This document shows positions 26,771 through 63,672 of a stretch of 64,000 bases of DNA, piece after piece; position 1 is the stretch's first letter; every line of letters begins with the position of its first letter. The DNA is from Desulfamplus magnetovallimortis (GTDB taxonomy: Bacteria > Desulfobacterota > Desulfobacteria > Desulfobacterales > Desulfobacteraceae): assembly GCF_900170035.1 (NCBI RefSeq), contig NZ_LT828547.1, positions 56,281 through 120,280 of the forward strand. Reading direction: 5' to 3'. The notes under the pieces were generated by a model, which ran no database searches, was not told the origin of the DNA, and saw nothing but the letters and a program-made list of their open reading frames with translations. Made by a program: the position numbers and the translations under genes.

Positions 26771-29700
26771 TCAATTTTTCAGGTCAGATGCGGTTATGGC
26801 TCTGTTTCTCCCTTGCATTTTGGCGTTATAAAGAGAAATATCAGCAGAATTAAGCCCATCCTGTACCTGTTGTCCAGGCTGTGGAATGGTGTGGATTGCA
26901 CCAAAACTGAGTGTAACATGAGAACTGACATCAGATTTTTTGTGAAGAATTTTCAGTTCCCGAATATTTTTCTGGATCTTCTTTATAATATGGCGCACTC
27001 CTTCGGCACCGGTCTCAGGCAATACCAGTACAAATTCTTCTCCACCATAGCGGGCCACAACATCGCCTGGACGATTGGCAGAGCTGACTATGGAATTGGC
27101 AATCCGACGGAGGCATTCATCACCTGCCAGGTGGCCGTAATAATCATTGTACTGTTTAAAATAGTCTATATCACACATTATCAGGGAGATTGGCGTCTGC
27201 ATGCGCATATGTCTTTTCCACTCTTTTTCAAGGGTATCGTCAAGATATCGCCGATTGAAAACCTGTGTAAGTCCATCAATACTGGATATTTTCTTAAGAC
27301 TTTTATTTGCTTTTTGTAGTTTCTCATTCAGGTTGACCAGTTCGGAGGTTCGTTGTGATACCATTGTCTCAAGTTCATTATAGAACCCTGCATTTTCTAT
27401 TGATATGGCGATCTGTGTGGATAACAGTTCCAGTACCTGAAGATGTTTCCTGGTAAAAGCGTCTTCGAGAAGATTATTTTCCAGATACAAAATTCCCTTA
27501 AGGCGTCCTGAGTTCATCAATGGAAGGGTAAGAGCCGAATTTATGATCTTCTGTCTGAAATATGAGTCTGCGGTAAAATCCCCGGATTTTGAGGCAGCAC
27601 CGAGAAGTATGCTTTCCCGTTTTCTGGCGCAGTAATTTATGAGACTGAGAGGAAAAGAGTCATTTTGAGTTGCATCGGCTGTTGCTTGCGGAATCGACAC
27701 CTCAGCCCAGTCCAGACGGGCTTCGGCCTTGATAACCCAGCGGTCGTCGATTTCAGAGAGAAAAAGTGAACGGCTGGCACCGGCATTTTCCATAACAACT
27801 CTCATCATCTTTCCAAGTAGTCTGTTAAGATTTATTTCACTTGCCAGGGTCTGGGATGCCTGAACAATGGAGATCATATCAAAAGATACAACATCGCTGT
27901 TTCTATTAAGAGTGTTTAAAAAAGTTGCCTCAGTCAGAGGGAAATTGTATCGGTCAGAGGCGGAGCCCGAGGGTAAATCCAGCATCAGGTCGGCATATCT
28001 ATTTTCAATATGTTTCACTTTGGCGAAAGCCCCCCATTTTTCATAGGCAAAGCGTGCGTCATTAATATGATATGACGCAGATAAATTCATTTTCTGCTCA
28101 AAGAGGAACTCTGCACAGCGCTCATGTGCCAGAGCTTCATTATTTATATAACCTGCATGTTGAGCTTCTGCAATGGCAAGATCGTAATATCTGAGAGCAT
28201 CCCAGTTGCGGGATTCTGCTCGTGCTCGCTCCGCTTCAACAAGTAAATATTTATGTTTGAAATTGACGGGGCTGTTATCTGCCCAGACTTTCATTTTGTT
28301 CTGATACTCTGCAACTGCATCCAGTACCTGATTTAGCCTCTCCTTGTCGAATTTTTCTCGACAGGCAAGTAGGGTTAAAGATGCATAAAAAATCATTTCA
28401 GGTACTTTTGCCTGCCCTTGAGCAATTGATGAGACAAAATCAACCTTGTCAATCATCTCCAAAGCGTCATCTATGTAGCCAAACCAGTAAAGGCTGCGAA
28501 GTTTTGCGACATAGTAATAAGAGAGCGCCAGGGGATTTTTTTTGTATTTTTTTAGAAAAGTCTCTTCAGTAAAATTATCATCATCAAATGTTTTATCACT
28601 TTTAGTTAGCCCTGACAACTGAAGCAGAGGGTTCAGACAAGCCGGTCTGACAAACTCATCAAGAACCACTGGTGCGTTATTTTGCAAAAATGGCAGATAA
28701 CGTTTGGCTTCAATCAAGAGCTGCTGACAGTTCTGCCCCCATATTGTCGGGTCTGAAATCATGAATTCTGCGCAATACCCGGCATATGTCCAGTCTCCGT
28801 TTTCAACCAGAAGAGGAAAGGAGTTCAAACTGTAATCATGGGATGATGCCAGAGGTGCTCTCCAGTGGTTTATGAAGACAGAAAAGAGCAAATAGACCTT
28901 GCCGCGCATAAGAAGATCATCAAATTGTTCCGCAAGTTTGATGGCAGTTTTTCCAAAGCGATGTCCGGTTTCATATTGACCCAGTAACGCTATGCAGACA
29001 AAGGCATAATTCATGTAGGCATAGGATGTGAGATGATTGTTGCCATATTGGAGAGAAATGGCGGTCATTTTACAGGATGACCAGGCAACAAGTTCGAGAC
29101 GGGAATCAAGGTAGGCGCTGGTCCACAATTCCATGAGAATATCCATAATGGACGCATGGTGCGCAGAAGTCATCTTTGGGGCATGTTTCAGGCTTTCAAT
29201 GCTTCGGGAGCCAAGCAGTTTTGAAACCGTTTCCAGTTCGGTTTGCAGCAAAGATGAGATATCCGCCTCTCTGATATCCACGTCAAGAAGGGAAAGTGCC
29301 TCTTTTTGAATATCTACAGCACCTGCATAATCTCCCTCCAGATGAGAATGCAACATGCGGATCATGTGAACTGAGACACTATCTTTCCTTGAAGTTGCGT
29401 TTTTCAGCAAAGTTTGAAAAACATTTTCAATGTTGCCTGTTTCACCAGCGTAATGGAGACAAAGAGCCAACTCACAGTGGATGGAAAAGGTCACCTTGTA
29501 ATAGTCCTGCCAGCTTTCCTCCGGCAGGAGCGTAACTGCTGTTTGGAGATAGCGGATTGCAGATGCATATGCTGTGGCTTTTTTAGCCAATTCACCTGCA
29601 TCCCTGTTGAGTGTTGCAAGGGTTATCCGTTCATTTTGGTCTGTAATCAGGGCAATTGCCGAGTTCAGGTTATTAACAACGTCAAAAATTTTTTCTGCTC

Positions 29701-31813
29701 CAGATCTGCTTTCATAATTTTTGAGAAGTCGTCTTCCGATACGGTAATGAATCTCTTCAGGGTTCTGAATCAATGTATAACATGCCTGCTGGATTCGATC
29801 GTGGGAAAATCGAAAGCTTGCCATATCATGTGGAATAATCAACCCTTCAGCAATGGCCTCACTCAAATCTTCAACAATCTTTTTTTCTTCAACTTGTGAA
29901 ATAACACTGAGTGTTTCGACATTGAATGCATTACCTGTACAAGCTGCAAATTGGAGAATTGACCGGGTTTCTGGTGACAATGTTTTGATTTTGGCTTCCA
30001 TAAGTTGCACAACATCTTCTGGAAGCTTCCGGCGATGAATTTTTTCAATGTCCCATTTCCAGCGTGCGGTTCCTGAATCAAAAAAAATGAGCTCTTCAGA
30101 GTAAAGTGTTTTTAGAAACTGTGTTACAAAGAAAGGGTTTCCAAGTGTTTTAGTGAAGATGAGTCCAGCCAGGGCTTCAACATCCTGGGAGGTTGTGTGC
30201 AGTGAATCCCTGCACATTGCCACTACATCTGCCCACTCAAGATTTCCAACCTTGATTGAGTCAGTGTATATGGCTTTTTTGTTTAATGATTCCAGTAGTA
30301 AAATGAGTGGATGGGAAGAAGATATCTCATTGTCTCTGTATGAGCCAATCAAAAAGAGGCTTGATTGCATGGCGTCTGTCAGAAGGGTAGAAAGCAGGTT
30401 AAGGGAGCCAGGGTCTGCCCATTGAAGGTCGTCAATGAAAATAACGAGGGGTGAGTCCTCCGTGGCTGCTGAACGGAAAAAATTCCGACAGGTATAATTG
30501 AATCGATTTTGCGCTTCAAGTCCTGACAATTCCGGCACATCCGGTTGAGGCCCGATGATAAGTTCCAGAGAGGGAAGCATCTCTATCATTAATTGTCCGG
30601 TTTTTCCCAAAGATTCCTTTAGTGACAGGGATATGGAGTCAAGTCGATCCCTGCTTTCGGAAAGCCACAGATTGACCAGTCTGGAAAGTGCCTGTTTAAA
30701 GGCATAATAGGGTATGGTGCGTTGATTCTGGTTAAACTTACCTTCTACAAAATAGCCTCTGTTTTGCGTAACGGGTTTCTGTATCTCCTTGACAAGGGAT
30801 GTTTTGCCAGTGCCGGAATAGCCTGAAACAAGAAGAATGTTGGAGTGATTATTTCTCTTTGAAATAAATTTATTGAATGTGTCGTATAGGAGTGTGCGTT
30901 CTTTTTCACGTCCGTAAAGTTTCTGGGGAAGGAAAAAGATGTTGAAGATATCATTACGACCGATTTTAAAAGAAGTAATAGTTCCTTTTTTAATAAGTAA
31001 TTCACGGCAGGTTTCAAGATCGGATTTCAGCCCGATTGCATTTTGATACCGTTGTTCAGCCGTTTTTTTCATCAGTTTTGACACTATTTCCGAAAGAACT
31101 GGCGGGATATCCGGTTTTATTTCAGATATCATCGCTGGCGGAGTTGTCATGTGGGCATATAGCATTTCAAGTGGATTGGTCGCTTTAAATGGGAGACGGC
31201 CTGACAGAAGCTCGTACATGGTCACACCGAGAGAGTAGAGATCCGTGCGGTAATCAATCTGGCGATTCATCCGGCCACTCTGTTCAGGGGAGATGTACGC
31301 CAAAGTCCCTTCAAGGGTGGAGGATTGACTCAATCCTAAGTTGGTTGGCGATAAAAGCGATGCAATGCTAAAGTCAATCAACTTGCAGACGCCTGTTTTC
31401 GGATTATATACGATATTGGAAGGAGTTATATCTTTATGAATTATCCTTTTTTCATGAATTCGACAGAGGGTATCTGCCACAGATATGAAAATGTTCAATA
31501 GTTCCAACAATTGAAATTGATGTTGTCCTGCAAGGATTCTCAGTGAATCTCCATCAAAATCTTCGGTAATAAGAATCAGGTTGCTGCCTTGTGCCTTTAA
31601 TTCATAAGCACCTATCACAGATTCGATGTCAAGAGAGGAAAGATGGCGATATTCATTTCGGTAGCGGGTCAGATCCTTGATATCCGGCCGTTCTTTTCTC
31701 AGTTTCTTTAGAACAACGTGTTTGCCATCCTTAACACGTTTCCCACGAAAAACTATAGATGTGGCACTTTCGTAGATTTTTTTTTCCTGAATGTAGTCAT
31801 TGTTTTCATTCAT
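26771..31813 (-). CDS. Multidomain signalling protein: Ser/Thr kinase - AAA ATPase/TPR-like - GAF - GGDEF
   Basis: 1680 residues. The kinase (about 8-285) has VVLKKL (lysine), HKDITPSNIVY (catalytic Asp), LIDFSIAS in place of DFG, and GTLAYISPEQSGRMN. An AAA/STAND-type ATPase follows: Walker A SGYSGTGKTS and Walker B LVIFIDDLQWAD. Residues about 650-1330 are helical, TPR-like. GAF is near 1350-1490, then a coiled coil (VSQRTSELVNLNEKLQKANK). The GGDEF domain has an intact GGEEF at 1590-1594 and an RPGD inhibitory site five residues before it, so it probably makes c-di-GMP. The architecture is known from PknB-AAA hybrid kinases. It sits inside the nqr locus between nqrD and nqrE, same strand. 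Confidence 0.92.
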   Translation of the reverse strand: MNENNDYIQEKKIYESATSIVFRGKRVKDGKHVVLKKLRKERPDIKDLTRYRNEYRHLSSLDIESVIGAYELKAQGSNLILITEDFDGDSLRILAGQHQFQLLELLNIFISVADTLCRIHEKRIIHKDITPSNIVYNPKTGVCKLIDFSIASLLSPTNLGLSQSSTLEGTLAYISPEQSGRMNRQIDYRTDLYSLGVTMYELLSGRLPFKATNPLEMLYAHMTTPPAMISEIKPDIPPVLSEIVSKLMKKTAEQRYQNAIGLKSDLETCRELLIKKGTITSFKIGRNDIFNIFFLPQKLYGREKERTLLYDTFNKFISKRNNHSNILLVSGYSGTGKTSLVKEIQKPVTQNRGYFVEGKFNQNQRTIPYYAFKQALSRLVNLWLSESRDRLDSISLSLKESLGKTGQLMIEMLPSLELIIGPQPDVPELSGLEAQNRFNYTCRNFFRSAATEDSPLVIFIDDLQWADPGSLNLLSTLLTDAMQSSLFLIGSYRDNEISSSHPLILLLESLNKKAIYTDSIKVGNLEWADVVAMCRDSLHTTSQDVEALAGLIFTKTLGNPFFVTQFLKTLYSEELIFFDSGTARWKWDIEKIHRRKLPEDVVQLMEAKIKTLSPETRSILQFAACTGNAFNVETLSVISQVEEKKIVEDLSEAIAEGLIIPHDMASFRFSHDRIQQACYTLIQNPEEIHYRIGRRLLKNYESRSGAEKIFDVVNNLNSAIALITDQNERITLATLNRDAGELAKKATAYASAIRYLQTAVTLLPEESWQDYYKVTFSIHCELALCLHYAGETGNIENVFQTLLKNATSRKDSVSVHMIRMLHSHLEGDYAGAVDIQKEALSLLDVDIREADISSLLQTELETVSKLLGSRSIESLKHAPKMTSAHHASIMDILMELWTSAYLDSRLELVAWSSCKMTAISLQYGNNHLTSYAYMNYAFVCIALLGQYETGHRFGKTAIKLAEQFDDLLMRGKVYLLFSVFINHWRAPLASSHDYSLNSFPLLVENGDWTYAGYCAEFMISDPTIWGQNCQQLLIEAKRYLPFLQNNAPVVLDEFVRPACLNPLLQLSGLTKSDKTFDDDNFTEETFLKKYKKNPLALSYYYVAKLRSLYWFGYIDDALEMIDKVDFVSSIAQGQAKVPEMIFYASLTLLACREKFDKERLNQVLDAVAEYQNKMKVWADNSPVNFKHKYLLVEAERARAESRNWDALRYYDLAIAEAQHAGYINNEALAHERCAEFLFEQKMNLSASYHINDARFAYEKWGAFAKVKHIENRYADLMLDLPSGSASDRYNFPLTEATFLNTLNRNSDVVSFDMISIVQASQTLASEINLNRLLGKMMRVVMENAGASRSLFLSEIDDRWVIKAEARLDWAEVSIPQATADATQNDSFPLSLINYCARKRESILLGAASKSGDFTADSYFRQKIINSALTLPLMNSGRLKGILYLENNLLEDAFTRKHLQVLELLSTQIAISIENAGFYNELETMVSQRTSELVNLNEKLQKANKSLKKISSIDGLTQVFNRRYLDDTLEKEWKRHMRMQTPISLIMCDIDYFKQYNDYYGHLAGDECLRRIANSIVSSANRPGDVVARYGGEEFVLVLPETGAEGVRHIIKKIQKNIRELKILHKKSDVSSHVTLSFGAIHTIPQPGQQVQDGLNSADISLYNAKMQGRNRAITASDLKN

Positions 31814-41476: not shown

Positions 41477-42766
41477 CTATTGCAATATCTCTTCGACAAC
41501 TTCCTGAATTGCTTCATTACTTAGATTGCATCCAGTATCTTTTTTGATAACTAACCGAATTTTATTAATAACATCCTCTGTGAGAATAGCTCTTGTTATG
41601 CTTTCATGGCTACGTGCTTTTATTTCATTCCAGGTATTTTCTAGCAATCCTTTACGAGTCATTCCGTATCTGGAGATAAGAACAAATTTTTTAGCATCAT
41701 CTCTACTTAATTCTGGAAGTAAATCAATAGAAAAGAGCAAATTGGCTTCAACTTTTTCTTGAGTTGATATGCGATATAGTTGCCAAGTTACAAGATTAGT
41801 TAATAAAGCCCATTTTATTCCGGAATAAGCCCCATAAGAAGTCGCTTGAAAAATATGTTTTTCTCTCAGAGACATCCCTGCTTTTTTAGCCTCTACCACC
41901 ATGATATCTGTATCATTAAGTGATAGCACATAGTCTGCCTTTCTACCTTGTATCTTTTGCTCTGCTTTTACTTCTTCAATTCTATAATCCAGTACTTCCA
42001 TCAAAATTTTATCTAAAACCATGCGAGTGTTGCTTTCATTTTGTTTTTTCTCTACTGCGGTATTAATTTGTGGAATAAACTGCTTTATTTGCTCAATTAT
42101 TTGTTCAGTATGTTGTTCTAATTTTTTTTTAGGCGAACGTTTTGTTTTTCTGGATAGATTTGGTGATTGAGTTGTTTTGAATTCTGAATCGTTACTAATT
42201 TTATTCTGATCTGATTCAACTTTCACACCATAAGCAGAAGTAATAACTTCTAATCCACCATTATATCCTTGCCCTACTGCTCTAAATTTCCATTTTTCTT
42301 GGTACTGATATATTTCGCCTATTATCAAAGCAACTTCATTATTAATTTCTTCAATATCAAATCTGATTATTTCGTAATCATTATCTTTTTGCATTATCCT
42401 AATATAAGCATTTTCTATCATGCTAAAATTAATATCTCTATTTTCTTCACTAACAATAGTTGCAACAAATTGAATCTTATTTATATCTTTTGGAATTTTA
42501 GATAAATTAAGAGTAAAACAACACATGTCATCATCAGAATTTGCATCTTCATATAACACTATACAACAATTTGGGCCTTCTGGTTGATTGTAAAAAATAA
42601 AATCCTTATCATTTCTGACATAACCGTCTTCATTAAGCATGAATGCACTAATATCAACATCAAAATCATTATTTTTAGACCAGCCTAATCCGACAGTAAT
42701 TTCATCAAGATTTTGATTTTTGTACATTAATAATGAATTTGCCCCTTTTTGTAATCTAACTGTCAT
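41477..42766 (-). CDS. TerD domain fused to PD-(D/E)XK nuclease-like (HsdR N-terminal type) domain
   Basis: 429 residues. Residues 1-182 are a complete TerD domain: WSKNNDFDVDISAFMLNEDG, DDDMCCFTLNLSKIPKDINK, and the closing GEIYQYQEKWKFRAVGQGYN; the Asp residues are those expected to bind Ca2+. A basic linker (about 200-216, RKTKRSPKKK) follows. Residues 245-345 look like an HSDR_N-type nuclease: E257, D278 (KADYVL), then E292-A-K294 (VVEAKKAGMSL) and Q307 (FQATSYG), a PD-(D/E)XK pattern. The C-terminal 80 residues are helical. The gene is clearly more AT-rich than its neighbours. It lies in the mla operon on the opposite strand, with no other ter gene and no methylase nearby. Confidence 0.85.
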   Translation of the reverse strand: MTVRLQKGANSLLMYKNQNLDEITVGLGWSKNNDFDVDISAFMLNEDGYVRNDKDFIFYNQPEGPNCCIVLYEDANSDDDMCCFTLNLSKIPKDINKIQFVATIVSEENRDINFSMIENAYIRIMQKDNDYEIIRFDIEEINNEVALIIGEIYQYQEKWKFRAVGQGYNGGLEVITSAYGVKVESDQNKISNDSEFKTTQSPNLSRKTKRSPKKKLEQHTEQIIEQIKQFIPQINTAVEKKQNESNTRMVLDKILMEVLDYRIEEVKAEQKIQGRKADYVLSLNDTDIMVVEAKKAGMSLREKHIFQATSYGAYSGIKWALLTNLVTWQLYRISTQEKVEANLLFSIDLLPELSRDDAKKFVLISRYGMTRKGLLENTWNEIKARSHESITRAILTEDVINKIRLVIKKDTGCNLSNEAIQEVVEEILQ

Positions 42767-54412: not shown

Positions 54413-56857
54413 ATGTCGAAATCAATTGGTATTGACCTCGGTACCACAAATTCCGTGGCTGCCATAAAGAGAGTGCATACAGAAATTATAAAAAATAGTG
54501 AAGGTGACGATTTAACCCCTTCATGTGTCACCCTTAAGAGCAAAAAGGGTGTAATGAAATATATAGCAAAGGAAAGTTTTGTTGTGGGACGCCATGCCCT
54601 GGAGTGGATGAAACAGGATCCTGCAAATACCGTTACTGCTGTTAAGCGACTCATGGGCAGAAGCATCAATGACCCAGATGTCAAAAAAATTATTGCAGAC
54701 AGGCGACACCTGAACACCATAACAACACATTCCCGTGGTACTGAAAACAGCCTTGCAATTCTTCTTGGTAAAAATGAGTACACTCCGGAACAGATATCTG
54801 CAAAGATTCTGGAAAAGATTCACACAGATTCAGAAAAAGCTCTTGGTGACACCATTGAATATGCTGTTATAACTGTCCCTGCATATTTTAATGACAAGCA
54901 GAAACACGCCACCCGCAATGCTGCTGCCATTGCCGGAATGAAGGTGCAGCGCCTGCTTCCTGAACCCACGGCTGCCGCCATATCCTTTGGCGTTGACAGT
55001 GTGGGAGTCGATGATGCAAAGACCGTTCTTGTTTTTGATTTTGGAGGTGGAACCTTTGATCTTTCGGTTCTTACAATAAGTGGAGGTCAATTCATTGAGC
55101 AGGGCAAGGGCGGTAACATGTGGATGGGCGGTGAGGATATTGACCAAAAAATCATTGATCATGTACTTCATGAGACAGCAGAAGAGTATGATATAGATGA
55201 TATCCAGGCATTTATTGATGGCCAGTCAATATCAGACAAAAATCGTTTTTCCGCAGAGCTTAAAAATGCAGTGGAGCAGGCTAAAATAGCTTTAAGTGAA
55301 AAAGATGAGACAGCCATTGAACTGCTTGGTATTCTAAAAGACAGTGACGGAGATCTCATTGATATTGATGTTGAATTGACACGGAATGAGTTTGAAACCA
55401 TCATTTCCCCCATTGTTGCAGGAGCAATGGAACTTGTAAAAAATCTTCTTGAACAGATTCATTTTACGCCTGATCTCATTGACAATGTTCTTCTTGTAGG
55501 GGGTAGCTCCAAAATTCCATGTGTGATAAAAGCTGTTAAGGAGCTTTTTGGTGAAGAGAAGGTTCTTCTGCATGATCGTCCCATGCTTGCCATAGCCGAA
55601 GGGGCAGCAATTTTAAGCCATCGCCTTTCTGATTCATATGAATGTCCGGGGTGCGGACGTGAAGTTTTACAGTCAGACAAAACATGCCCTGGTTGCCAGT
55701 TTGACCTTGATGCCCATGTTGCATCACACAGTGTTTACGATATTATACATTCTGCTGCCCATGACTATTACATTGTCCTTGAAAATGGTGAAAAATATCT
55801 TTTGATAGAGAAAAATACACCTCTTCCATGTGAACAGAAAGAGATGTTCAACCTTGTTCATCATGAACAGCGCCTTGTTCATATGAAGTTTGTGAATGTT
55901 GTCAATGACATTGAAGAGAGTATCGGGGATTTGTGGCTTGGCATTGACGATGAGATGCAGGAGTCACTGTACAGAAAAAAGTATGAAAATGAAAATATGA
56001 AGCTCAATGCCTCAGATGGAGATGAAAATGGAGACAGTGAAAAAAAAGAAACTGAAGAGGATGTAAAGAGCGATGAAGGCGTTGATCCTGAAAAACCTTT
56101 GACAATTGAGGTTAGCCTGAAAATTGATGAAAACAACATTGTTGAAGTTGGTGCATCAATTGTGGAAATTCCTGAAGCTGAAATTTCTAAAAATCTTTCA
56201 CGAGGCAAGGCAGATGAAAAGCTTTTTGTGGAGCTTGAAAATCTCATCAATGAAACCAATACCTCGGATGCAGATGATTATGTTGCTCTTGAGGTTACAA
56301 GTCGTACAATAGGAATTATCAAGGATATCAACAAGGTTATTGATGAAAAAACAGGTGGGGTAATTGAGCCTGTATATGATCTTGCATTTCAAAAAATTGA
56401 TAATACCCGAAAATTGTCACAAGATGGCCTCACATGTCAATCTTTGATCTACTATTGTGAAAATGTTATAAGCAGTTTTGGCAATATTCTGCCGCCTGGA
56501 GATATTGTGAAGTTGAAGAAGCGTACAAAACACCTTGAAGAGATGATGGAACGGGGATCTTATAAAGAAAATGTGGATGCCTATAATGCTCTTGATAATG
56601 CCCTTGACAAGATGCCTATGGTCACTGCGCTTATGACAATTAAAAAAGCGGGTGGCCTATGTTTGGAGCATGAACCTGCAAAGGCACCTCTTTTTCTATC
56701 CGCCATTCAGGGGCTTCTCTCCCTTGACGAGGGAGCAAGCGAAGATAGAATACAAGCAGGATTTGACAAAATTATTAGTACATTGCCCCTGGCACATAAT
56801 ATTATTGAAAAGTATGACTATCAGAAAACAACTATTTACAAGGGGATTACAAAATAG
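54413..56857 (+). CDS. Divergent Hsp70 with a zinc ribbon in place of the usual C-terminal domain
   Basis: 814 residues. N-terminal nucleotide-binding domain (about 1-390): GIDLGTTNSVAAI, NDKQKHATRNAAAIAGMKVQ, VFDFGGGTFDLSVLT and LLVGGSSKIP. The normal substrate-binding domain is not seen. Instead, four cysteines at about 411/414/425/428 (CPGCGREV, CPGCQFD) form a zinc ribbon, followed by DIIHSAAHDYYIVLENGEKY, LIEKNTPLPCEQK (a shortened beta-domain-like stretch), an acidic linker (about 540-570) and a helical C-terminus. Ribosome site AAGGAAAAACAG. It leads a five-gene cluster with J-like and GrpE-like proteins. Confidence 0.85.
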   Translation: MSKSIGIDLGTTNSVAAIKRVHTEIIKNSEGDDLTPSCVTLKSKKGVMKYIAKESFVVGRHALEWMKQDPANTVTAVKRLMGRSINDPDVKKIIADRRHLNTITTHSRGTENSLAILLGKNEYTPEQISAKILEKIHTDSEKALGDTIEYAVITVPAYFNDKQKHATRNAAAIAGMKVQRLLPEPTAAAISFGVDSVGVDDAKTVLVFDFGGGTFDLSVLTISGGQFIEQGKGGNMWMGGEDIDQKIIDHVLHETAEEYDIDDIQAFIDGQSISDKNRFSAELKNAVEQAKIALSEKDETAIELLGILKDSDGDLIDIDVELTRNEFETIISPIVAGAMELVKNLLEQIHFTPDLIDNVLLVGGSSKIPCVIKAVKELFGEEKVLLHDRPMLAIAEGAAILSHRLSDSYECPGCGREVLQSDKTCPGCQFDLDAHVASHSVYDIIHSAAHDYYIVLENGEKYLLIEKNTPLPCEQKEMFNLVHHEQRLVHMKFVNVVNDIEESIGDLWLGIDDEMQESLYRKKYENENMKLNASDGDENGDSEKKETEEDVKSDEGVDPEKPLTIEVSLKIDENNIVEVGASIVEIPEAEISKNLSRGKADEKLFVELENLINETNTSDADDYVALEVTSRTIGIIKDINKVIDEKTGGVIEPVYDLAFQKIDNTRKLSQDGLTCQSLIYYCENVISSFGNILPPGDIVKLKKRTKHLEEMMERGSYKENVDAYNALDNALDKMPMVTALMTIKKAGGLCLEHEPAKAPLFLSAIQGLLSLDEGASEDRIQAGFDKIISTLPLAHNIIEKYDYQKTTIYKGITK

Positions 56858-56865
56858 TTAAGCCG

Positions 56866-59121
56866 TTGGAAATAGAGTGCCCTGTATGTGGCCTTGAGAA
56901 TATTAATGCAGATCAGGATACCTGCCCCCAGTGTGATTCTGATCTATCATGTTTCAAGGTGCTTGATTCCTTTTACGATGTCATGGACAACAGACTGAAC
57001 GGCGGGGAAGCTGCCGCCTCAATGACTCCTCCCCATGAACCACAAAGTGGTAAAGCATTTAAGTCTTTATACAGTGATTCTGATAAGTCTTTATACAGTG
57101 ATTCTGATAAGCCTTTATACAGTGATTCTGATAAAAAACATGAAGAGTCGTTATCCAATGTAGTGGATGACGATTCTTTTGATTCTCATGATGAATCACT
57201 GTCAGAAGAAACGGATAAAGACTTTTTTGATTTTCCTGAAAAATCACAATCAGAAAAAATGGATAGGGACTCTTTTGATTCTAATGATGAGTCATCATTA
57301 GAAGAAATGGATAATGAATCTTTTGATTATTTTGATGAATCATTATCTGATGAAATTGAGGATGATTTATCTGAAGAGCTTAGTGACGAAATAATGAGTT
57401 ATCTTTCAGGTGAAATCTCATCTGATGAAGAGTTAGAGTCTGCAACAGATGGATTTGAAGATCAGTTTTCAGATGACGCTGAAGATAAATTTTTCGATGA
57501 AACTAAAGATATTTTTTCTAATGACTCTGAAGGTGGCTTTTCTAATGAATCTGAAGATGATTTTTCTGATGACTCTGAAGGTGGCTTTTCTAATGACTTT
57601 GAAGATGATTTTTCTGATGACTCTGAAGATGGTTTTTCTGATGACTCTGAAGATAGATTGTCTGATGAAGTTGAAGGTGCATTATTCCATGAAGAGGGTG
57701 ATACTCGTTCTGACCAACAAAAATTAAAATATACGGACGACCCCATTGAATTGGGTGATAAGTCACTTGCTGACTCCTTTGAAGATGAAGTTTTGCAGAC
57801 AAAAGAGGTGTTTGAGAAGGGCAGAAATGCTAAAGATGAAGATGAGTATTATGAGAGTATTGATAAAATGGATTCAGGTTCTGCATTAAGGGAGCTTGTT
57901 GCCCATGATGATGAAGAGAACTCTTTGCCCCAGGCATTTAAAAAAAGCTCTCGAAATTATCTTTTCTGGCAACATGTCGCGCTTTTTGTTTTGTTACCCC
58001 TGCTGATTATCATGACCTGCTCTGCTGTTATCCTCTTTTTGGGACGAAATGAATTTATAACCGTTAACGAGCAGCTCTCTAAAACTGTACAGGTAATATT
58101 TGAATCTGAAAACAGAGTTACAAAAAAGATTCAGGAACTTGAATCCATTGTTTTGCACAACAGGCCTGATCTAATATATTCGGGAAGGCTTCAGGAAACT
58201 TCCAGTGAAGATGCAGCTAAAGTTCATCAACAAAAGGCAGACAAGGTTAATATTGAATCAGAAGATGAAGTATTAAAAGCATTAATAGATGTAAAGCCTA
58301 AAAAAGAGGCCATAGAGCCTGAATCTGAAAAGTCAGAGTCGATGAATACAGAGCTTGAAAAGGACAGATTGGTAGATATTGAGCCTGAGAAAGAGAGAGA
58401 TATAGATGCAGAGCCTGAAAATGAGAGCCAAATAGGTGCGAAACCAGAAAAGGCGAGTCAAACAGGTGTGGAACCTGAAAAGGAGAGTCAAACAGGTGTG
58501 GAACCTGAAAAGGAGAGTCAAATAGATGCAGAACCCCAAACAGAGAGACAGATAGAGGTAAATTCTGAAAAAGAAGAGCCTGTAGAAGAAGCTCAAAACA
58601 AAAAAAATATTGAAGATGCTCGGATAGATGACCAGAATAAAAATATAAAACATATAAAGGCTGTTAAGCAGAAAAAAAGAGACAGTGTTAAAAAAGCAGT
58701 CAAACAGCTTCCTGAATACTCTTTGTCAAAGGAGAGTTCCAGCGAAGATTGTTTTAAAATATATCACGCCCATGACAGTGATACGCTTTGGAACATTGCA
58801 CAAAAGGTTTATGGTTCAGGCCGCTGGTATCCGGTACTTCTTGTTCATAACGATAATCTTTCCATTTATAATATAAGCAGCATAAATAAAATCAGATATC
58901 TTTGTGATAAAAAACTTGTACAAACTCTTTATAACCAGCAGTTTTATCGTAAAAAAACAGGAGGAAAGATTGCTCTGTTTTGGCACTATAAAGTGAAACC
59001 TGGAGACACCCTTGACACCATAAGGCATCAATACTGCCCCAAGGGTTTGAAGGAGCAAGATTGTATAGAACAAATAGATCTGCCGGCACCCGGAGAAAAG
59101 ATTCTGATTCGTCTGGAGTAG
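56866..59121 (+). CDS. Zinc-ribbon / acidic repeat / membrane / LysM-like protein of the Hsp70 cluster
   Basis: 751 residues, TTG start eight bases after the Hsp70 stop. N-terminal zinc ribbon (CPVCGLENI, CPQCDSD; residues about 4-25) like the ribbon in the Hsp70. Residues 65-285 are very acidic with repeats (SLYSDSDK three times; DDSEGGFSN units). One membrane helix (about 365-393, YLFWQHVALFVLLPLLIIMT). A second repeat region (about 490-570, EPEKESQTGVEPEKESQ). The C-terminus (about 628-751) has LysM-like motifs, YHAHDSDTLWNIAQKVYGSG and YKVKPGDTLDTIRHQYCP. It would link a cytoplasmic zinc-ribbon/acidic part to a cell-wall-binding periplasmic part. Confidence 0.75.
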   Translation: MEIECPVCGLENINADQDTCPQCDSDLSCFKVLDSFYDVMDNRLNGGEAAASMTPPHEPQSGKAFKSLYSDSDKSLYSDSDKPLYSDSDKKHEESLSNVVDDDSFDSHDESLSEETDKDFFDFPEKSQSEKMDRDSFDSNDESSLEEMDNESFDYFDESLSDEIEDDLSEELSDEIMSYLSGEISSDEELESATDGFEDQFSDDAEDKFFDETKDIFSNDSEGGFSNESEDDFSDDSEGGFSNDFEDDFSDDSEDGFSDDSEDRLSDEVEGALFHEEGDTRSDQQKLKYTDDPIELGDKSLADSFEDEVLQTKEVFEKGRNAKDEDEYYESIDKMDSGSALRELVAHDDEENSLPQAFKKSSRNYLFWQHVALFVLLPLLIIMTCSAVILFLGRNEFITVNEQLSKTVQVIFESENRVTKKIQELESIVLHNRPDLIYSGRLQETSSEDAAKVHQQKADKVNIESEDEVLKALIDVKPKKEAIEPESEKSESMNTELEKDRLVDIEPEKERDIDAEPENESQIGAKPEKASQTGVEPEKESQTGVEPEKESQIDAEPQTERQIEVNSEKEEPVEEAQNKKNIEDARIDDQNKNIKHIKAVKQKKRDSVKKAVKQLPEYSLSKESSSEDCFKIYHAHDSDTLWNIAQKVYGSGRWYPVLLVHNDNLSIYNISSINKIRYLCDKKLVQTLYNQQFYRKKTGGKIALFWHYKVKPGDTLDTIRHQYCPKGLKEQDCIEQIDLPAPGEKILIRLE

Positions 59122-59127
59122 GAGAAT

Positions 59128-61269
59128 ATGGCAAAAAAGAAAAAAAGCGTTGAAGCTATCCTTGCAAATGCTGAAAAGTTTTTTGACAGGGGAAATTTCC
59201 AGCTTGCCCAGCGGGAATTTGAAGCAGCACAGAAAAAACTGCAACGTGATGATATAGCGGAAAAAATACAAATCTGCATGTTGGAAAACAACAACACAAG
59301 GGCAAAGGAGCTTGTCAAGAAAGGGAACAGGGCTTTTGCAAAAAAAGATACTGAAGGTGCCCTGGTTAATTTCAGAGAGGCATTATCTCTTCAGAGTGAG
59401 CCGGAACAATGGCTTATAGATAAAATTACTTCCCTTGAAAACGAACACGCTGCCGAATGCGCTGATTCAGATGCCTCTACAGCAGAATCAGAAGGTCGTT
59501 TTGCTGAAGCTGCATCCTTGTATGCTGTTGCAGGGGAAAAAATGGATGACAGCAAACTTCTTCTGAAAAGTGCATTCTGTCTTGTGAAAGCAGGTAGCTT
59601 TGAGGAGGCAGTGAAAAGATTTAGCTCTGTAATTAAACGTGATGATAAGTTTCAAGGAGAGGAACATCATCGTTTTATATATTCGCATGGATTTGCACTT
59701 GCAAAAACTTCTGATTTTCATGGCGCACTTAAGGCATGGAGTGACCTTCCCATAAAAAACGAAGCTTTTCAGCAGCAGATAAAAGATGTTTTTGCGCTGG
59801 CTGTCCATGATTTCCTGAAATCTGTTAATAGCTCTTCTCTGTTTGATGAAACATCAGAACCGCTTCCTGATGAGCTTAACCGATATTCTGAACAGGCGAG
59901 AAGTCTGCTTGCCTTTTCCCCTGAAGATGAAAAAAATTCTCTTAATGTCACGATTGAAAAAATTATAAAATGTCTTAATTATGAGCTTATTGAAGCTGGC
60001 TGGAAAAATGAGGATTATGCAAAGGTATTGGATATTATTGGACAGATGCCGGACATAACTGCTTCGGAATTATTATCCATTAAAGCCAGGGCAGCTTTTC
60101 ACCAGTGTGAAAAAGATCCATCTTTTCTTGATACACTGGTTTCCTGCTGGCTGAAAGTAATCTACTCCATCAATACATCTTCAATATTTTCACTTGAATT
60201 TTCTGAGCGGGAAAAAGTTCAGAAAAAGCTCGTTAAAATGGGTGAAGCACTTGTTGCTTCCAGCAGCAGAACACCTGCTGCAGCATCTGCCTCAAGACGA
60301 TTTCAGCTTGATAAAAAAATTGTTAATCAACTTTTTGAACTTTGCAAATATGCCGGAGTAGTGGATAGTTCACGTTCAGAACTGGTTGCTGTTCCAGGAG
60401 ATGCAGCATCTTCCGGATTTTCTGACGAGATAAGGGAATTTATAGTATCAAACAGAGATTTTTTTAATGATAACGGGCACTATCTTGAAACTGGCGCATA
60501 CTACTCCACAGCCTGGGAAGCCATGTATTGCATGAAAACAGGTGAACTTGAAAAGGCAATTGCTATTATTGATGCTCTTCCTGATAAGAGTTTTGATGAT
60601 GAGTTCTCAATTTACACAAAGCAACGCGTCAATTATGAATACGGAAGATGGGCAATTGAGAAGGGTAAAAAGGATTTTATTCGTTATTTTGATGAAACTC
60701 ACCTGCTTTTTGAAACTGAGCCTGCCCTTGAAAAGGAGCTGATTGGCTTTCTCCATGAATATCAGGAGTTAGAAATTTTGAAAAGGTATGAACAGCTCAT
60801 TGCCGTGCTTCATGAGCGCAGTTCATCCGAAGAGATACGAAAAATTTATTCGTTGGTCATGATACAGTCAGCCATAGGCCGCTCAAACAATGGAGAGTTG
60901 CATGAACGTGTATTAAAGCGCGTTGCACGGGAAGCACTCTCTCTGGATCCTGAAAATGAATATGCCATTGAAGTATCTTCCACCATTTTAATAAAAGAAG
61001 AAGTTGAAATGATGATGGCAGCAATGTCCAGACGCAAATTTGCCAAAGCCAGCAGGATTGTAATGGAGTCTGAACATGAAGAGGTTCACAATATGTATTT
61101 TGAGTCAATGAAAAGACATGCTGAAATCTGCGAGGAGCATTATCTGGAAGATCCTGAGTTTGCTTTGGTTCTGATGCAGGAGATGTATGAGTGGGTAGAA
61201 AACATCGACCCTCTCCATGATGTAACAATGTATATGGAAAATTGTCTTGAAAAGTGGATGAGGAAGTGA
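59128..61269 (+). CDS. TPR-like helical repeat protein of the Hsp70 cluster
   Basis: 713 residues, soluble, helical throughout. The first 100 residues are TPR-like (AEKFFDRGNFQLAQREFEAA, KKGNRAFAKKDTEGALVNFR), and further repeats follow (AESEGRFAEAASLYAVAGEK, CLVKAGSFEEAVKRFSSVIK). No enzyme motif seen. A six-base gap from the upstream gene with GGAGTAGGAGAAT at the start shows tight coupling. The likely role is scaffold or co-chaperone for the Hsp70. Confidence 0.75.
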   Translation: MAKKKKSVEAILANAEKFFDRGNFQLAQREFEAAQKKLQRDDIAEKIQICMLENNNTRAKELVKKGNRAFAKKDTEGALVNFREALSLQSEPEQWLIDKITSLENEHAAECADSDASTAESEGRFAEAASLYAVAGEKMDDSKLLLKSAFCLVKAGSFEEAVKRFSSVIKRDDKFQGEEHHRFIYSHGFALAKTSDFHGALKAWSDLPIKNEAFQQQIKDVFALAVHDFLKSVNSSSLFDETSEPLPDELNRYSEQARSLLAFSPEDEKNSLNVTIEKIIKCLNYELIEAGWKNEDYAKVLDIIGQMPDITASELLSIKARAAFHQCEKDPSFLDTLVSCWLKVIYSINTSSIFSLEFSEREKVQKKLVKMGEALVASSSRTPAAASASRRFQLDKKIVNQLFELCKYAGVVDSSRSELVAVPGDAASSGFSDEIREFIVSNRDFFNDNGHYLETGAYYSTAWEAMYCMKTGELEKAIAIIDALPDKSFDDEFSIYTKQRVNYEYGRWAIEKGKKDFIRYFDETHLLFETEPALEKELIGFLHEYQELEILKRYEQLIAVLHERSSSEEIRKIYSLVMIQSAIGRSNNGELHERVLKRVAREALSLDPENEYAIEVSSTILIKEEVEMMMAAMSRRKFAKASRIVMESEHEEVHNMYFESMKRHAEICEEHYLEDPEFALVLMQEMYEWVENIDPLHDVTMYMENCLEKWMRK

Positions 61270-61271
61270 AA

Positions 61272-61574
61272 ATGAAAAATCCGTTTGTAATATTGGATGT
61301 TGACAGGTCAGTTACCCAGAAAGACATTATCCTTGCTGTTTCCAGGGCCATGCGGGAGAAAAAATACAGTGCCGCTGAAATAGCTGTGGCTCAGAAAACA
61401 CTGCTTGATCCTGTTTCCAGGGCATGTGCATCTTTTTTGTATCATATTGACTTTGGTGATAAAAAGAAAAAGATTTGTGGAAGCATTATGGATGATTATG
61501 AGCTACTTACTAAAGCTGATGAAGATGCTTTGAATAACAATTCTCTTGAATATCTTGACCTGTTTGACTCCTGA
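61272..61574 (+). CDS. Small degenerate J-domain-like protein of the Hsp70 cluster
   Basis: 100 residues from ATG 61272, two bases after the previous stop and behind GAGGAAG. The opening MKNPFVILDVDRSVTQKDII followed by AVSRAMREKKYSAAEIAVAQ and KTLLDPVSRACASFLYHI has the pattern of divergent J domains: NPF-x-x-LG start, helices, then the LLDPxxR stretch. The HPD motif that stimulates Hsp70 is absent, so this would be a J-like protein acting by another route. The rest is acidic. Confidence 0.55.
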   Translation: MKNPFVILDVDRSVTQKDIILAVSRAMREKKYSAAEIAVAQKTLLDPVSRACASFLYHIDFGDKKKKICGSIMDDYELLTKADEDALNNNSLEYLDLFDS

Positions 61575-61575
61575 T

Positions 61576-61650
61576 TAAGGCCATGATGGCTCACAGCCAA
61601 AATCGAAGAAATGAAAGTCTTTATATATCAGTATTTTATGGAGGCTTTCT
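61576..61650 (+). repeat. R8 fragment inside the Hsp70 cluster
   Basis: GCCATGATGGCTCACAGCCA, AAATCGAAGAAATGAAAGTC and TTATATATCAG match R8 in part. It separates the J-like and GrpE-like genes. Confidence 0.6.
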
Positions 61651-61668
61651 AATAAAAAAACACACTAC

Positions 61669-62157
61669 ATGGACAGCATGAAGCCCATTGCCCCCCAGAA
61701 CAACATGTTGGAACAAAAAGAGTATCTCAGAGAAAAATTTATTTCATTTCAACGAAAAATAGCAGACCAGAAACATGAACTTGCCAGGTGTCAGGATGAG
61801 TTCAGGCAGCGTGAACAGAGTTACTACATGAATCTCTTTGAAATTCTGGATGCTTTTGAGAACATTGATGCTACCCTTGAATCCAAAAAGGATGAGCTGG
61901 ATAAGACAGCAAAAATGCTTGGTCGTAATGTTCGTTCCATACATAAAAAGACTAAACGCCTTGTAAAGTCAGCGGGTATTGCTGCTATTGAATTCCCTGA
62001 CAACAGGGCTGAGATGTCATTATGCAAAATTGTTGAAACCCGCCAGGATCTCACTCTTGATAATGAGACAATTCTCTCTGTTGTTAAAAATGGATATATC
62101 AACATTGAGGATGGCACAGTGCTTCGCAAGGCTGAGGTTGTAACTGTTCTCAACTGA
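61669..62157 (+). CDS. GrpE-like protein of the Hsp70 cluster
   Basis: 162 residues. An N-terminal coiled coil (residues about 18-70, REKFISFQRKIADQKHELAR, QDEFRQREQSYYMNLFEILD) precedes DAFENIDATLESKK, which matches the GrpE LLxVLDNFERA region. The C-terminus (SVVKNGYINIEDGTVLRKAE, VVTVLN) matches the GrpE beta-domain ending VVxxGYxxGDRVLRPAxVxV. It would be the nucleotide exchange factor for the Hsp70 of this cluster. The start could be ATG 61678; an R8 fragment lies upstream. Confidence 0.75.
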   Translation: MDSMKPIAPQNNMLEQKEYLREKFISFQRKIADQKHELARCQDEFRQREQSYYMNLFEILDAFENIDATLESKKDELDKTAKMLGRNVRSIHKKTKRLVKSAGIAAIEFPDNRAEMSLCKIVETRQDLTLDNETILSVVKNGYINIEDGTVLRKAEVVTVLN

Positions 62158-62194: not shown

Positions 62195-62322
62195 CAGGGA
62201 AACTTGTTTGGTTTCCAGCTTGGTAAAAAGGGCTGGAATCGAGGAACCGTATGCGGGAAATCTGCACGTACGGATCTGCGGGGGAGGCGTTGAGTAATCA
62301 GTGCCTCTACCCGGACTTTTAG
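62195..62322 (+). ncRNA. Group II intron remnant
   Basis: The hairpin CCGTATGCGGGAAATCTGCA, CGTACGG and the following GGGGGAGGC ... GCCTCTACCCGG stem match conserved stretches that flank the reverse-transcriptase frame in bacterial group II introns (the ACCGTATGCG..CGCACGTACGGT and CTACCC signatures). No reverse-transcriptase frame is present, and the 5' end and domain V/VI could not be found. It is a fragment, not an active intron. Recognised from memory of these motifs. Confidence 0.5.
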
Positions 62323-63001: not shown

Positions 63002-63253
63002 ATGCAGGCATATTATGAAATAGAGACAGAAATTCCAGTTACTCATCAGCTAAATATTAAACTTCCAGATACTATACCCGTGGGGAGAGCAAAAATAGCT
63101 ATTATTTATGAAGTAACAGAAGTTCAATCTGATAAGAAAACCATGATGGCTGATTTTCTTAACAATCTTCCTGACAATCCAACAGGAGGCTGTTTAACTA
63201 AAGACGAGATAAAAACTTATATACAACAAGAACGTTCAAGTTGGGATGATTAG
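63002..63253 (+). CDS. Antitoxin partner of a PIN-domain toxin
   Basis: 83 residues. An N-terminal beta-rich part (IETEIPVTHQLNIKLPDTIP, VGRAKIAIIYEV) and a C-terminal charged helix (LTKDEIKTYIQQERSSWDD). Ribosome site AAAGGAGAAATAATT. It ends two bases before the toxin start. The small size, order and coupling are those of type II antitoxins; the family name is not certain. Confidence 0.75.
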   Translation: MQAYYEIETEIPVTHQLNIKLPDTIPVGRAKIAIIYEVTEVQSDKKTMMADFLNNLPDNPTGGCLTKDEIKTYIQQERSSWDD

Positions 63254-63255
63254 AA

Positions 63256-63672
63256 ATGTCGAAAATATATTTGGATAGCTGTATGATTATAGGCTTGATT
63301 GAAGGTGATGCTACGCAGCGTCAATTACTAAAAAAAAACTGTATACATCATAAGATATACAGCAGCGAGTTAGCACGTTTGGAGACTCGTTTATTAGCTA
63401 TTCGTAATAACAATCAAAATCTTTTAAAACAATTTGATCGTTTTTTTGTCGCGTGTGAAATTATTAATTTGGATCGTGATGTTTTTGAAAGAGCAACACT
63501 ATTAAGATCAAAAAATAATATTAAAACACCAGATGCACTTCATATTTCCGCAGCAATTGAAACAAATTGTCATGAATTCTGGACAAATGACAGCCAATTA
63601 ATAAAAGCAGCACGTCAATATATTGAAATGGTAGATTTTGAAGTATTGAAGACAAGAAACATCACAAAATAA
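63256..63672 (+). CDS. PIN-domain toxin (VapC-like ribonuclease)
   Basis: 138 residues. The four acidic positions of PIN ribonucleases are visible: YLDSCMIIGLIEG (Asp7), a Glu in SSELARLETRLL, Asp in IKTPDALHISAAIE and Asp in FWTNDSQLIKAA. It would cleave RNA (tRNA or mRNA) when free of its antitoxin. It follows the antitoxin by two bases. The AT-rich codon use suggests acquisition. Confidence 0.85.
   Translation: MSKIYLDSCMIIGLIEGDATQRQLLKKNCIHHKIYSSELARLETRLLAIRNNNQNLLKQFDRFFVACEIINLDRDVFERATLLRSKNNIKTPDALHISAAIETNCHEFWTNDSQLIKAARQYIEMVDFEVLKTRNITK

Follow-up and report, generated by a model that had tools for sequence, protein, structure and literature searches.

What use might a bacterium have for a linked set of Hsp70-cycle components in which every component has been modified? 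The question is raised by positions 54413-62157 of the window (the 64,000-nucleotide stretch of the Desulfamplus magnetovallimortis genome analyzed here). In a preliminary description, this region was said to hold five same-strand genes, including a modified copy of each component of the Hsp70 cycle, that could form a self-contained chaperone system at or through the membrane. The parts and their homologies were borne out by the present analysis, as set out below; the proposed site of action was upheld in part.

Anatomy of the five-gene cassette

All five ORFs were present on the plus strand in the order Hsp70, zinc-ribbon/TM/LysM, TPR, J-like and GrpE-like. The features referred to in this report are as follows.

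54413..56857 (+): Hsp70, 814 aa, with an intact ATPase domain and a long helical C-terminal part (Pfam HSP70, 3.5e-97)
55643..55696 (+): zinc ribbon within the Hsp70 (C411, C414, C425, C428), at the NBD-SBD junction; weak Pfam zinc-ribbon matches
56866..59121 (+): zinc-ribbon/single membrane helix/LysM protein (gene 2), 751 aa, TTG start
57060..57676 (+): acidic tandem-repeat stretch of gene 2, lacking in relatives by alignment
57973..58035 (+): predicted membrane helix of gene 2, about residues 370-390 (hydropathy scan)
58747..59118 (+): C-terminal LysM-like region of gene 2, a conserved alignment block predicted to lie outside the cytoplasmic membrane
59128..61269 (+): TPR-like helical repeat protein, 713 aa (Pfam TPR_19, 4.6e-10)
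61272..61574 (+): J-domain protein without HPD, 100 aa (Pfam DnaJ, PDB-profile and fold matches of the family)
61669..62157 (+): GrpE-like nucleotide exchange factor, 162 aa (Pfam GrpE, 3.3e-9, above cut-off)

The intergenic gaps were 8, 6, 2 and 94 bases; the spacing of under ten bases noted earlier for most of the cluster holds for three of the four gaps but not for the last. For the J-like gene, the ATG at 61272 was preferred as the start over the GTG at 61254. Promoter and terminator scans gave signals at or near shuffle level, and a search of the five proteins against PADLOC-DB 2.0.0 returned no defense family, only a chance-level match (0.0039) between the GrpE-like protein and PbeC. The Rfam scan detected nothing besides the 3' end of a group II intron (RF00029, 49.5 bits) at window positions 62242-62316 (+), 85 bases past the GrpE-like gene; there is no space between for an intron body or a reverse transcriptase, and this fragment is probably a remnant. 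Farther downstream (63002-63672, +), a small gene pair resembles, by eye, a VapB/VapC-type (PIN) toxin-antitoxin.

Elsewhere in the same genome were found a canonical DnaK, two GrpE homologues plus one short partial match, and six DnaJ-domain proteins; the Hsp70, J and GrpE proteins of the cassette are therefore additional, diverged copies. A second non-canonical set was also noted in this genome (locus L024, contig C5, 7237-13760). It comprises an Hsp70 (607 aa), a GrpE-like protein, a small J-domain protein with YPPE where HPD would be, and a helical-looking protein of 862 aa.

The first gene product had been described as a divergent Hsp70 with intact ATP-site motifs, a zinc ribbon and an altered C-terminus, and this proved accurate. 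The Pfam match to its NBD spanned residues 5-406 and was followed by a CxxC..CxxC zinc ribbon that replaces the LLLD linker; the SBD-beta is divergent. Residues D8, K70, E171, D194, T199, P143 and Y145 (E. coli numbering) were invariant in 57/57 Hsp70s of this system. The zinc-ribbon pattern was detected in 44 of the 57 (three of the 13 misses were failures of the script's anchor motif) and a large part of the Bacteroidota branch lacks it; the ribbon is therefore not essential. When the family profile of the C-terminal part was compared with the DnaK SBD, a match of 1e-10 was obtained, i.e. this part is a homologous, peptide-binding SBD-beta, and the predicted model of the Hsp70 (pLDDT 88.9) had DnaK structures as its top PDB matches (E 1e-45). 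Judged from its sequence, the protein is a divergent member of the Hsp70/DnaK family despite the loss of the LLLD linker, not a non-member. Its C-terminal tail, roughly [IV]xK[DG]I and conserved in 38/57, could be a candidate dock onto the TPR protein.

Distribution and co-inheritance

A profile search with the C-terminal part of the Hsp70 retrieved 67 loci in named genomes from at least nine phyla, and partner genes were located by profile searches of all ORFs beside these loci. Carriers among the Desulfobacterota included Desulfobacter latus, Desulfonema magnum, the cable bacteria Electronema and Electrothrix, and a member of the same genus as the window organism (Desulfamplus sp., locus L027). 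Other carrier records were labeled Elusimicrobia, Spirochaetales, Nitrosomonas, Schekmanbacteria, Victivallales, Bacteroidota, Lachnospiraceae, Gammaproteobacteria and Oscillatoriales; individual phylum labels may be wrong, because several of these records are metagenome bins. The cassette is rare and patchy. A strong match was obtained in 26 of the 389 genomes of the order, and of 395 sampled Bacteroidota genomes the probe genome alone was positive, the other matches being to canonical DnaK SBDs. Plasmids, phage records and viral contigs yielded no relative of the C-terminal part. Several carriers (cable bacteria, Desulfonema, Oscillatoriales) are filamentous or multicellular, like those of the systems described by Kaur et al., and Desulfobacter is not.

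Gene order was identical in all 41 loci that had five complete genes, with median gaps of 0, 2, 1 and -4 bases. The flanks varied between loci, even between the window and the Desulfamplus sp. locus. Had the genes been unlinked in other genomes, the earlier view of them as one system would have suffered; instead, their order was kept in unrelated genomes with different surroundings. Pairwise distances were correlated among the five proteins (Mantel r 0.76-0.94; 0 of 999 permutations as high). This correlation owes something to common descent, and it points to joint transmission of the genes, not to binding between the proteins. In the Hsp70 tree, the system Hsp70s fell on one side of a branch and ten other Hsp70s on the other (SH-aLRT support for a single origin 91, not starred; long branches were present). 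Phyla were mixed on the system side, which suggests horizontal spread. The anatomy of the cassette and its co-inheritance are well supported.

The J-domain protein and its Hsp70 contact sites

The HPD motif of the J-domain is regarded as a trigger that Hsp70 cannot do without. The fourth gene product had been described as a degenerate J-domain-like protein without this motif, and both halves of the description were confirmed at the family level. By itself, the window protein gave no J family match in the Pfam search. Among its 50 family members, however, 30 matched Pfam DnaJ (best 1.6e-5), and the family profile matched DnaJ structures in the PDB at 1e-3, with an HPD loop about ten residues shorter. 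The model had pLDDT values >90 for about residues 1-50 and a structural Z against J-domains of up to 8.7. The J-domain identity, weak in the window protein alone, is firm for the family. The motif was absent from its site between helices II and III in 50/50 members; the sole HPD string in the family, in L077, falls outside the helix II-III loop (by inspection). For the GrpE-like protein, the Pfam match (3.3e-9) covered residues 10-158, with helical and beta domains, and the family profile matched the solved GrpE structure 4ani at 4.9e-10. Neither protein turned out to match an unrelated fold; both are true homologues.

The Hsp70 side of this interaction was then examined at three DnaK positions that are part of the HPD contact or adjoin it (N170, Q378 and D393; E. 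coli numbering throughout), with 57 system Hsp70s set against 33 others drawn from Bacteroidota and from the window genome. N170, which we take to sit at the HPD contact site, was P, A or S in 57/57 system Hsp70s, and Q378 was L, M or V in 57/57. At the D393 position, D was found in 0/57, and the linker letters were replaced, leaving no LLLD. By contrast, N170, Q378 and D393 were all kept in 31 of the 33 other Hsp70s, the two exceptions being remote paralogues. R167 was mostly retained in the system Hsp70s (50 R and 6 K of 57). On Hsp70, the contacts of HPD are H33-L391, P34-P419 and D35-R167/Q378, and the linker and D393 are required for linker stimulation of the ATPase (PMC8215388; also PMC13012618). 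Asp35 of HPD pairs mainly with R167, and with that residue retained, the J-binding site on the Hsp70 is not wholly lost.

As read from the alignments, the J-Hsp70 trigger has changed on both sides together, and the ATP site has not. The trigger appears to have been rewired on both sides, and we infer an effect of the altered sites on the Hsp70 cycle. Compared with DnaK-DnaJ-GrpE, the cassette has a homologous NBD, SBD-beta, J-domain and GrpE and retains the catalytic residues, whereas its J-protein is without HPD; N170, Q378, D393 and the LLLD linker have given way to other residues; and a linker-site zinc ribbon, a TPR subunit and a membrane/LysM subunit are added. There is a precedent for a J fold without HPD: J-like proteins of the Pam16/Tim16 type remain associated with a membrane-located Hsp70 motor. 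In those systems, stimulation is carried out by a second, HPD-bearing J-protein, whereas the cassette encodes none. The joint loss of HPD and its Hsp70 contact sites beside an invariant ATP site offers natural material on how a J-domain may act without HPD.

Membrane/LysM partner, genomic neighbors and competing explanations

Gene 2 had been described as a zinc-ribbon, acidic, membrane and LysM-like protein. Three of these parts are conserved: of 63 relatives, 61 had two N-terminal CxxC motifs and 60 had one membrane helix (hydropathy scan), and the LysM, which scored 0.002 in Pfam for the window protein, was above cut-off in relatives of the divergent branch (e.g. L083, 3.1e-13). The long acidic part is not conserved; it consists of species-specific tandem repeats. 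The order zinc ribbon-helix-LysM fits a topology, predicted from hydropathy, with the ribbon inside and the LysM on peptidoglycan, and tethering of the cassette to the envelope is probable. The TPR protein was conserved in L018-L022. In the divergent branch, its gene was missed by the first profile, but a counterpart of 783-1470 aa occupied the same position, with weak TPR matches in the single protein examined. Of the earlier proposal of a self-contained chaperone at or through the membrane, the envelope link stands, being conserved across phyla, but chaperone action there is what we infer.

The genomic neighborhoods differed between branches. In the divergent, Bacteroidota-type branch (a small sample of 14 loci from one search), a complete Zorya II set lay downstream of the cassette in L085 (ZorA2 and ZorE2; ZorB2 from family counts), with kinase/vWA/PP2C genes upstream. 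ZorA1 and ZorC1, with ZorB-like genes between the two, adjoined the cassette in L086, and BrxB was near it in L080. Kinase/vWA/PP2C genes adjoined L081, L085, L092 and L093, and in L082 and L084 a kinase-AAA protein was encoded immediately past GrpE; none of 20 control regions gave a match to the kinase/vWA/PP2C queries. The PADLOC kinase models PD-T4-6 and mad6 match kinases generally, and alone they were not scored as defense. In the Desulfobacterota branch, vWA and PP2C were found in L034 only. PADLOC defense matches in the Desulfobacterota flanks, including those of the window, were not clearly above control regions, and the idea of defense enrichment there was dropped. No TerY-P triad stood beside the window cassette: the window and the next 20 kb had no vWA or PP2C match and a single weak match to a remote kinase. 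No defense system adjoined the cassette within the window, and no effector, nuclease or toxin was found in the cassette itself. A role of the cassette in conflict is plausible.

For the mode of triggering and for a role in conflict, we offer hypotheses. The reading that we put forward, with about an even chance of being right, is that the cassette encodes a dedicated Hsp70 machine that has spread horizontally, sits on the inner side of the envelope and acts as a switch. The gene-2 protein would be a single-pass membrane protein, its zinc ribbon inside and its LysM on peptidoglycan, and would dock a complex of Hsp70, TPR and J proteins at the membrane. The cognate J-protein would still bind the Hsp70 without firing hydrolysis in the usual way; ATP turnover would be gated by another input (the state of the envelope, a client or the TPR protein) and reset by GrpE. 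Instead of folding proteins in general, the Hsp70 would in this way be a poised switch or assembly motor, and phage defense or another conflict response might be its task in one branch or more.

A machine of the same parts might instead be a housekeeping, client-specific chaperone that assembles or inserts one envelope or secreted complex and has no role in conflict. This is possible, if on the unlikely side. It would suit the Desulfobacterota loci, which lie among ordinary genes (L051, for example, is beside ribosomal protein and chemotaxis genes, by eye) and whose flanks have no clear defense enrichment over control, as well as the lack of an effector in a cassette that conserves a membrane/LysM partner. 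Against it, the cassette is rare and patchy (26/389 genomes of the order, and the probe genome only among 395 Bacteroidota), no constant client gene adjoins the cassette, and the divergent branch has Zorya, BREX and TerY-P neighbors. That the genes are functionless, decaying dnaK, dnaJ and grpE paralogues is barely credible. The losses of HPD and of the linker, and a window J-protein below family cut-offs, are what decay might leave behind, but the frames are open, the order is the same across phyla, the catalytic residues are invariant and the divergence is correlated; conservation in the main refutes this explanation.

Of the themes already published, the one nearest to the cassette is the HSP70-GrpE variant of the GAP1-N2 GTPase-centred systems, in which HSP70 and GrpE occur with an FNIII protein fused to DnaJ/TPR as a second theme and kinase/PP2C/vWA forms another (Kaur et al. 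2020, PMC7159879). Both share Hsp70, GrpE and J/TPR parts, zinc ribbons, and membrane and cell-wall domains, with TerY-like kinase/PP2C/vWA in related themes (PMC7159879), and the window genome does carry a GAP1-N2 protein. That protein, however, is encoded on contig C17 (G000:C17:46493-46879, 1.3e-21), not on contig C8 with the cassette; 20 of the 24 genomes with the cassette lacked GAP1-N2 (PF20013); the five genes have no GTPase or FNIII family match; and the phyla are mostly different. Because GAP1-N2 is missing from these 20 carriers and from the locus, the cassette was not filed under these conflict systems, and that it is a version of them is improbable. Type III CoCoNuT CnuD and Hsp70-McrB fusions likewise place an Hsp70-like protein in conflict systems, with TerY-P beside some types, but CoCoNuT Hsp70s have degenerate Walker A-like motifs whereas the ATP-site residues of the cassette Hsp70 are intact (PMC11090510). 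Identity with CnuD was dropped, as GrpE and DnaJ are unnamed in the text of that paper (PMC11090510). A search of the open-licence literature gave no description of the five-gene set.

The switch reading has a more specific and more doubtful form, which we advance tentatively: the cognate, HPD-less J-protein would work through a co-evolved, rewired interface, and the Hsp70 machine, tethered to peptidoglycan, would be an envelope sensor that triggers a conflict response. If true, this would be a new way to run an Hsp70 and a new kind of defense or stress switch. If the tether and the defense neighbors are meaningful, an Hsp70 machine would join the envelope-linked systems of bacterial immunity and stress.

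Further genes near the cassettes were noted. About 12 kb from the window cassette, at 41477-42766 (-), is an unusual fusion, in which a TerD domain is joined to the nuclease-like HSDR_N domain known from type I restriction (2.2e-56 and 1.3e-8 in Pfam), and a protein kinase/AAA/GAF/GGDEF protein of 1680 aa is encoded at 26771-31813 (-). In the Desulfobulbaceae/Electronema, a response-regulator/histidine-kinase hybrid lies directly upstream of the cassette in L059 (by Pfam), L064, L065 and L067. Downstream of GrpE, a membrane-looking protein of ~100 aa is conserved in L080 (14702-15004), L085, L088 and L089, and it follows GrpE directly in three of these four Bacteroidota copies.
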